NCBI RefSeq assembly: GCF_009392895.1
Contig: NZ_CP045488.1
Coordinates: 62,001-126,000, forward strand
Direction: 5' to 3'
DNA from: Natronorubrum aibiense
GTDB lineage: Archaea > Halobacteriota > Halobacteria > Halobacteriales > Natrialbaceae
DNA: 64,000 nucleotides
The number at the start of each line of letters is the position of its first letter. The stretch's first letter is position 1. A model generated the notes under the pieces. That model saw only the letters and a program-made list of their open reading frames with translations, was not told the origin of the DNA and ran no database searches. This document shows positions 25,116 through 26,407 of this stretch, piece by piece. The translations under genes and the position numbers were made by a program.

Positions 25116-25200
25116 GCGCGGGTAGCCAAGCCAGGCCAACGGCGCAGCGCTTAGGACGCTGTCCCGTAGGGGTCCGCCGGTTCGAATCCGGTCCCGCGCA
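25116..25200 (+). tRNA. tRNA-Leu (TAG)
   Basis: An 85-base class II tRNA. The acceptor stem pairs GCGCGGG with CCCGCGC with discriminator A. The anticodon stem CAGCG/CGCTG carries loop CTTAGGA (anticodon TAG). A variable arm CCC-GTA-GGG and T arm CCGG-TTCGAAT-CCGG are present. CCA is not encoded. Its last 21 bases recur exactly at 25497-25517 and in two diverged copies between. Confidence 0.95.
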
Positions 25201-25517
25201 TTGCTGTCGCGAGTAAACCCGCGAGCGACAGCACTTGTCGGCTGGATTCGTGGCCCAGAGAACGAGCGAAGCGACGTTCTCGTGGTTCGAATCCGGTCTC
25301 GCGCATTCTCCGCGAACAACATCGTGAGCGGAGACTTCGGTCAGCGGTTCGAGCCCTGGAAACCGAACGAAGTGAGGTTTCCTCCGGTTCGTAATCCGAT
25401 CCCGCGCGTGAGCGAATGGAGAGCGAAGGAGCAGAACCGAGTCGAGCCCTGCAAGGAACGCGCAGCGACAAACTGGAGCGAGCATTTCTTATTTCAGTTC
25501 GAATCCGGTCCCGCGCA
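25201..25517 (+). repeat. array of tRNA-Leu 3'-end copies alternating with hairpins
   Basis: Directly after the tRNA, three modules of about 102-110 bases each end in a copy of its 3' end: 25284-25305 (one mismatch), 25386-25407 (two changes, including one insertion) and 25497-25517 (21/21 identical to 25180-25200). Perfect hairpins lie between them: 25202-25210/25225-25233 (9 bp), 25258-25264/25275-25281 (7 bp), 25307-25313/25328-25334 (7 bp) and 25358-25364/25376-25382 (7 bp). The second and fourth have loops of related sequence (AGCGAAGCGA, GAACGAAGTGA). No protein gene is credible here. It may be an attachment-site remnant or a structured RNA. Confidence 0.8.
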
Positions 25518-25594: not shown

Positions 25595-26407
25595 ATGGCC
25601 GGGTTAGACGACGTGTTCGGGGATCTCTATCGGAGTGTCGATGCGGTCGTCCTCTTTTCGCCGAGCGGCTCGTACTACGAGCGCTTCGCGGACATCGAGG
25701 ATCTCGATCTGATCGTCATCGGAACGGAAAACACCGTCGGCGCGGAGACGTTCGTCGAGTTGCCACTCGCATTCGACGACATCCGAGACCGAATCCGATT
25801 CGGCCTCGAGGGCGCCTTAGAACAGGGATTGATCGAAGACGGTGACGAACTCGTCTGTGCGACGAGCGTCTTCAGTGACGGAATCGATACAGTCTCACGA
25901 GTCCGTGCGGACGCCGAAACGCACACGGGAATCTACGATCTGTTCGTCAAGTCCCGTGCGGAGCCGGAAGTGGTCAAGGCAGTCCTCGAACTAGCGATCG
26001 AACTCGGGAAGAAAGGCCAGAAAGGCAAGCCCGTGGGCGCACTGTTCGTCGTCGGTGATGCGGGGAAGGTGATGAACAAGTCCCGGCCGCTATCGTACAA
26101 CCCCTTCGAGAAATCCCACGTTCACGTCGGCGATCCGATCGTGAACGTCATGCTGAAGGAGTTCTCCCGACTCGACGGCGCATTCATCATCTCCGATGCG
26201 GGCAAGATCGTCTCGGCGTACCGATACCTCGAGCCGTCCGCCGAAGGGGTCGACATCCCGAAAGGGCTGGGCGCACGCCACATGGCCGGCGGGGCGATCA
26301 CGCGTGATACGAACGCGATCACGATCGTGCTCTCCGAAAGCGATGGCCTCGTTCGGGCGTTCAAAGCCGGCGAGCTCATTCTGGAGGTCGATCCGGAGGC
26401 GTACTGA
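25595..26407 (+). CDS. dacZ: diadenylate cyclase DacZ
   Basis: A 270-residue enzyme that makes cyclic di-AMP from two ATP. The DisA_N/DAC catalytic core is in the C-terminal half: LDGAFIISDAGKIVSA supplies the DGA motif (about residue 196) and GLGARHMAGGAIT corresponds to the RHR-like motif (about 226). The first 110 residues form the N-terminal domain typical of archaeal DacZ. The downstream MscS gene starts one base after its stop. Haloferax DacZ is essential and linked to osmotic balance (established knowledge), which fits this partner. Confidence 0.92.
   Translation: MAGLDDVFGDLYRSVDAVVLFSPSGSYYERFADIEDLDLIVIGTENTVGAETFVELPLAFDDIRDRIRFGLEGALEQGLIEDGDELVCATSVFSDGIDTVSRVRADAETHTGIYDLFVKSRAEPEVVKAVLELAIELGKKGQKGKPVGALFVVGDAGKVMNKSRPLSYNPFEKSHVHVGDPIVNVMLKEFSRLDGAFIISDAGKIVSAYRYLEPSAEGVDIPKGLGARHMAGGAITRDTNAITIVLSESDGLVRAFKAGELILEVDPEAY

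Follow-up and report, generated by a model that had tools for sequence, protein, structure and literature searches.

Several described systems share features with the array of short repeats that lies behind the tRNA-Leu(TAG) gene of Natronorubrum aibiense. Integron arrays (attI/attC; PMC2727003) resemble it in their growth at a fixed proximal site and in their units bounded by recombination-site-like palindromes with variable terminal structure, and perhaps in the folding of the site from one strand, but the units described here contain no gene, have a tRNA T-arm as their core, fold in the tRNA-sense strand and are haloarchaeal. The SMR-A and SMR-B elements of Haloquadratum walsbyi are also haloarchaeal, gene-less, about 80–110 bp long and furnished with inverted repeats; SMR-A inserts inside palindromes, and SMRs enter other mobile elements, for the most part IS605-type elements and PATEs, without duplicating the target (PMC3119063), whereas the present units go to tRNA 3' ends, where 20 nt of the tRNA are left behind as a copy. 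Islands placed at tRNA genes by tyrosine recombinases (PMC8371274) likewise repeat the 3' part of the tRNA at their far end and leave the tRNA intact; those islands are kilobases long and carry an integrase gene, while the units here are about 105 nt long, gene-less and stacked in arrays. Casposons and CRISPR arrays show leader-proximal growth with a duplicated repeat, and casposons can target tRNA 3' ends, but here there are carriers free of Cas1, the repeat is longer and the insert is palindromic. Finally, the REP/MITE-type hairpin repeats of bacteria are short, gene-less and mobilised in trans, but all loci examined here adjoin tRNA genes and are matched in sequence to each tRNA. We found no description of such units in the open-access literature searched; an earlier description elsewhere is possible.

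Results

The array behind tRNA-Leu(TAG)

The window, by which we mean the whole 64,000-nucleotide stretch analysed (contig NZ_CP045488.1, positions 62,001 to 126,000), carries its tRNA-Leu(TAG) among core genes, the next downstream gene being that for the diadenylate cyclase DacZ (25595-26407). The original prediction of three modules of about 105 bases behind this tRNA, with perfect hairpins between copies of the tRNA 3' end, agrees with our measurements (Table 1): each of the three units terminates in a copy of the last 20 nt of the tRNA, the spacing of the copies is 105, 103 and 109 nt, and the 24-nt tRNA 3' region that starts at 25179 in the tRNA itself recurs from 25284 (96%), 25387 (71%) and 25496 (92%). 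The 21/21 identity claimed for the last copy (GTTCGAATCC through GCGCA) was recovered at the far end of the array. Perfect stems are present in units 1 and 2 (A1, TGCTGTCGC/GCGACAGCA; A2, TCTCCGC/GCGGAGA; B1 and B2 as in Table 1), the loops of the B hairpins contain AGCGAAGCGA and AACGAAGTGA, and units 1 and 2 fold well as RNA while unit 3 is unfolded. A feature that had been missed is an inverted T-arm copy, called P1 here, upstream of every B hairpin, so that B and the tRNA copy form one long palindrome.

No integrase or transposase was found by Pfam among the seven ORFs that neighbour the array, and in an Rfam scan of the window the tRNA alone scores above the gathering threshold within the array region. 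The left edge of the window holds the leuA-Halobacteria RNA (RF03001; 151-203, plus strand), a known cis-regulatory RNA.

Table 1. Positions in the window of tRNA-Leu(TAG) and of the units behind it
Feature	Position	Strand	Remarks
tRNA-Leu(TAG)	25116..25200	+	ARAGORN; T54-N73 = 25181-25200, the stretch that recurs downstream
Unit 1 (proximal, youngest): hairpin A1, P1, hairpin B1, copy 1	25201..25305	+	RNA fold z -4.4; missing in sister species G007
Hairpin A1 (TGCTGTCGCGAG..CGCGAGCGACAGCA, tandem G-A mismatches)	25202..25233	+	
P1 of unit 1 (GGCTGGATTCG)	25240..25250	+	antisense to tRNA T-arm
Hairpin B1 (GAGAACG-AGCGAAGCGA-CGTTCTC)	25258..25281	+	
Copy 1 of tRNA T54-N73	25286..25305	+	1 mismatch
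Unit 2	25306..25408	+	z -2.6; 91% identity to first G007 unit behind tRNA-Leu(TAG)
Hairpin A2 (TCTCCGCGAACAACATCGTGAGCGGAGA)	25307..25334	+	
Hairpin B2 (GGAAACC-GAACGAAGTGA-GGTTTCC)	25358..25382	+	
Copy 2	25388..25408	+	decayed, one inserted base
Unit 3 (distal)	25409..25517	+	decayed fold, z +1.0
Copy 3 of tRNA T54-N73	25498..25517	+	0 mismatches

Similar units lie behind many haloarchaeal tRNA genes

The survey covered 168 tRNA genes in four haloarchaeal genomes, namely the window genome (G000) and one genome each from the same genus (G007), the same family (G034) and the same order (G060), and a unit was scored where the last 20 nt of a tRNA (T54 to N73) were copied 30–220 nt downstream of that same tRNA with ≤4 mismatches. 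Related haloarchaea had been named as the place to look for the module behind tRNA-Leu and other tRNAs, and it is found there: 62 of the 168 tRNA genes have a downstream copy of their own 3' end (G000, 10/48; G007, 18/44; G034, 23/44; G060, 11/32), with 19 perfect copies in G034, a few special cases among the 62 (a tandem tRNA-Asp in G007 and class II-like units at G007 Ala-CGC) and a null rate, measured with ends taken from the genome's other tRNAs, of 0–0.13%. The possibility of identical modules after many tRNAs had also been raised; modules do lie behind many tRNAs, yet each bears the 3' end of its own tRNA, which was not foreseen.

Of 43 haloarchaeal genomes, 23 contain a match to a strict pattern for the palindrome; none of 204 other Halobacteriota does, and the reversed pattern, used as a control, gave 0 matches. 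All 12 of the 12 loci opened from such matches lie close behind a tRNA gene, and matches that seem inverted are units behind tRNAs encoded on the other strand. A hairpin-A pattern tied to the T-arm gave 15 stretches in named genomes, all of them haloarchaeal, in genera that include Natronorubrum, Natrialba, Natronococcus, Halostagnicola and Halomicrobium; the hairpin-A pattern alone was unusable in the window genome, where with two mismatches allowed it did no better than its reversed control. The window array is a member of a widespread haloarchaeal family and not a local oddity, and the units are gene-less cassettes confined to haloarchaea among the genomes searched. A 7-kb element parts the tRNA-Leu(TAA) of the window genome from its hairpin array (L227; G000:C1:655000-673400, minus strand), so that tRNAs that seem free of units may have their array further off.

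Anatomy of the units

The usual order behind N73 is hairpin A, P1, hairpin B, GTGG or a similar sequence, and the copy of T54 to N73. Hairpin A lies directly behind N73 and often has a loop like GCGARCAANNYCGYGAGC, P1 is antisense to the T-loop and the 3' strand of the T-stem of the tRNA (GGGATTTGAA and variants), and hairpin B is of several recurrent types. P1 pairs with the tRNA copy, and B thus stands in the head of a long palindrome. Unit lengths of about 85–150 nt leave no room for a gene. Only 20 of the 62 units have a P1 that is clearly specific for its own tRNA (5% level), since many tRNAs have similar T-arms. The tRNA-Val(TAC) of the window genome has a unit without hairpin B, in which hairpin A runs straight into an entire T-arm and acceptor 3' strand (L061). 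Behind tRNA-Val(CAC) of the same genome (L064) two more perfect hairpins (CGAAAGACGCTTCGCGTCTTTCG, CGAGAGAGCTTCGCTCTCTCG) are nested in the loop of hairpin B, and from this locus the insertion of hairpin within hairpin seems to be common.

Hairpins with tandem G-A mismatches number 66 in the 62 units (2.1 in shuffles), and the complementary-strand equivalent (TC) occurs 0 times in the same units; the strand that folds is therefore the tRNA-sense strand. The loops comprise 47 GNA triloops, 4 GNRA tetraloops and 0 UUCG loops. GNA loops closed by G-C pairs, d(GCGNAGC), form an extraordinarily stable DNA minihairpin (PMC4686876), and the excess of GNA triloops points to DNA as the folding molecule, though this is not proof.

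Twelve further units, which we call class II, copy tRNA positions 60-73 only. Their hairpins are on the opposite strand (TC 11, GA 0), P1 is in the clearer cases antisense to the acceptor end, and the roles within the palindrome are exchanged. One of them follows a class I unit behind tRNA-Arg(GCG) of the window genome (L083, offset 240); other class II loci are L194, L203, L184, L106, L160 and L196. Hairpin A stays proximal in class II, which would not fit a flipped linear donor; the 12 units, of which some are short and some show a weak P1, suggest instead a circular cassette with two inverted cores that integrated via its other core.

Single-unit differences, decay and exchange

Comparison of orthologous tRNAs gives differences of exactly one unit. 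At Leu-TAG the window genome equals its sister G007 plus unit 1 (91% identity, the first G007 unit matching window unit 2), and G005 equals G002 plus one proximal unit; at Phe-GAA, G034 equals G007 plus one unit (89% identity, the alignment running from base 0 past the junction on both sides); and similar differences with exact boundaries occur at Lys-CTT (G007 vs G000), Ala-GGC, Arg-GCG and others. At Val-GAC, G007 has a unit that G000 lacks, and the DNA past the G007 copy starts like the DNA past the G000 tRNA. Recombination between the 20-bp repeats would also yield single-unit differences by loss, so the direction is unproven case by case, but different modules stand in different orders in different genera, which requires gains, and we infer that most of the differences are gains. 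At tRNA-Leu(TAG) of G001 (L025) position 57 in the T-loop of the tRNA is A, whereas the proximal copy retains the G of its congeners, which in this single case is as expected had the incoming cassette replaced the 3' part of the tRNA.

Copies are better preserved in proximal than in distal units, by 15:3 in the Leu-TAG arrays (p=0.0075) and 15:2 in other arrays (p=0.0023), and the proximal unit is the better folded by 30:12 (p=0.008); these p-values are approximate, since pairs within an array are not fully independent. Window copy 3, perfect at the far end, breaks this gradient. Adjacent units are mostly unlike modules, and the position at which one and the same module stands varies between genera. 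Repeated integration and/or excision, one of the original suggestions, is supported by the exact presence or absence of single modules at the tRNA boundary, by the unlike neighbours and by the decay that grows with distance, and tandem amplification, another of them, can have made no more than a small contribution (units 1 and 3 of L019; L219).

Similarity of hairpin A tracks tRNA orthology (0.61 vs 0.55, p=0.004) and similarity of hairpin B does not (0.546 vs 0.549, p=0.68), and different tRNA ends share B alone in 41 pairs and A alone in 8. At tRNA-Ser(TGA) in three genomes A and P1 are common while B is unrelated and has been swapped exactly between TTTGAA and TTCAAA. B is exchanged between tRNAs faster than A.

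Discussion

The arrays are best read as accreted mobile hairpin cassettes rather than processed RNA, and this reading is well supported by the target, the boundaries, the presence or absence of single units, the outward decay, the exchange of B and the strand-specific hairpins, all of which are observed. As the fuller account we favour, with a probability of roughly 60%, one in which each insertion sets A, P1 and B beside the tRNA and leaves a duplicate of T54-N73 at the far end. The incoming cassette (hairpin A, antisense T-arm P1, hairpin B) would be placed next to the tRNA, duplication of T54-N73 at its far end would leave the tRNA intact, and older cassettes would be displaced outward and decay there. 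The mobiliser would most likely be a tyrosine recombinase supplied in trans and crossing over in the T-loop, and the palindrome of P1, B and the T-arm copy may fold as single-stranded DNA into a double-stranded core, as does integron attC; we offer this mechanism as a proposal. A gene-less, integron-like haloarchaeal system in the full sense, with tRNA genes as integration platforms, a folded single-stranded site whose core is the inverted T-arm pair, and class II arising via the other core, is an extension of it that we consider rather unlikely.

A processed structured RNA had also been suggested. That the units might be co-transcribed with the tRNA, cut at their tRNA-like ends and kept as small RNAs under selection is favoured by their strong folds (mean RNA fold z of first units -3.45), a class I folding strand that is the tRNA-sense strand, and a P1 that tracks the tRNA sequence with some G-U pairs. 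Mismatches in the stems of 144 hairpins with tandem GA are nevertheless as often A-C (33) as G-U (30), and 12 vs 11 at internal positions, while tRNAs from these genomes have 57 G-U and 2 A-C in their acceptor and T stems, so that the decaying unit stems do not show the tolerance of wobble pairs expected if an RNA helix were maintained. The pairing of P1 with the copy departs from this (17 G-T(U), mostly at two fixed positions adjoining B, and 2 A-C) and would be compatible with a paired RNA as well. Moreover, the fold is lost in distal units, B is replaced wholesale, presence differs between sister species, the 5' strand of the tRNA T-stem is missing beside the loop in the copies, and class II hairpins are on the other strand. 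Purifying selection on the units is not evident from sister-species identity (0.78 in the first 60 nt, 0.68 in the flank beyond and 0.87 in the upstream DNA). The absence of a G·U preference in the stems, together with a loop type that is very stable in DNA, leads us to read the arrays as mobile cassettes, and we regard RNA processing as improbable. A greater, though still low, likelihood attaches to the units being scars. On this view a provirus or plasmid integrated at the tRNA, a deletion between the unit's end copy and the right-hand att site then removed it, and the unit is what is left of its attP-proximal DNA. Integrases adjoin several unit-bearing tRNAs, and the tRNA-Gly(TCC) of G034 hosts a 3-kb element (L223:175-3416) that contains a 369-aa integrase ORF and has at either end a near-identical direct repeat made up of 43 nt of tRNA and a whole unit; integrase-bearing elements can thus carry units along or have units duplicated around them, and this keeps the scar model alive. 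The model is opposed by BLAST searches, in which unit 1 had no match in plasmids and the array matched phages in its tRNA part only, by five pattern matches in viral contigs that lie in unrelated contexts with no tRNA gene or hairpins and are taken as chance, and by other elements (at Leu-TAA of the window genome and Glu-TTC of G060) that have no unit beside the tRNA and have merely pushed the array away. The repeats also start differently, at T54 in the units and near the anticodon loop in the integrated elements examined at haloarchaeal tRNAs, whose att identity blocks are about 43–60 nt.

Insertion by a Cas1 or casposase-type enzyme, with a 20-bp target duplication in the style of CRISPR spacer acquisition, would account for the freshest unit standing beside the 'leader', the tandem order and the duplication of a fixed repeat, and the casposase of A. 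boonei, whose target is the 3' end of a tRNA, reads the sequence TCAAATC (PMC6614799). It is hardly credible here: Cas1 (PF01867) is present in 6 of 14 carriers and missing in 8, including the window genome and G034, which has the most perfect copies; the repeat here, 20 nt long, has TCAAATC within it, as against a duplication of 14-15 bp that lies 8 bp beyond TCAAATC in A. boonei (PMC6614799); and flipping of the donor would not give the proximal A of flipped units. Neutral tandem duplication with hairpin slippage and no insertion enzyme, which we consider very unlikely, can point to the two 99% identical units (1 and 3) of L019 and to the tandemly duplicated block of two different units at tRNA-Ser(TGA) of G116 (L219), from which it follows that ordinary duplication also enlarges arrays; its difficulty lies in neighbours that are mostly unlike, in modules that recur at different positions in different genera, and in the exact boundaries.

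As to the enzyme that would serve the mobile-cassette reading, no recombinase was found linked to the units. The tyrosine recombinase domain PF00589 occurs in 14 of 14 carriers and is universal in controls too, so its presence is permissive and constitutes weak evidence. The start of the att identity blocks of integrated elements near the anticodon loop, and not at T54, also speaks against this reading. Reverse transcription primed at the antisense T-arm was rejected on the absence of the reverse transcriptase domain (RVT_1, PF00078) from all 14 carriers in a search in which positive controls scored, and mobilisation by a Y1 (IS200/IS605) transposase was rejected, PF01797 being present in 7 and missing in 7 of the 14.

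The family is a pointer to a system, as yet undescribed, that inserts DNA site-specifically. A large share of the tRNA genes of some haloarchaea bear these cassettes, and tRNA 3' ends are thus repeatedly used by something other than ordinary kilobase islands. Where these genomes show odd repeats or spurious ORFs behind a tRNA gene, the units may be the explanation. The question raised is which enzyme recombines hairpins with a core matched to each tRNA, and the arrays offer a record of insertions that is readable like a CRISPR or integron array.
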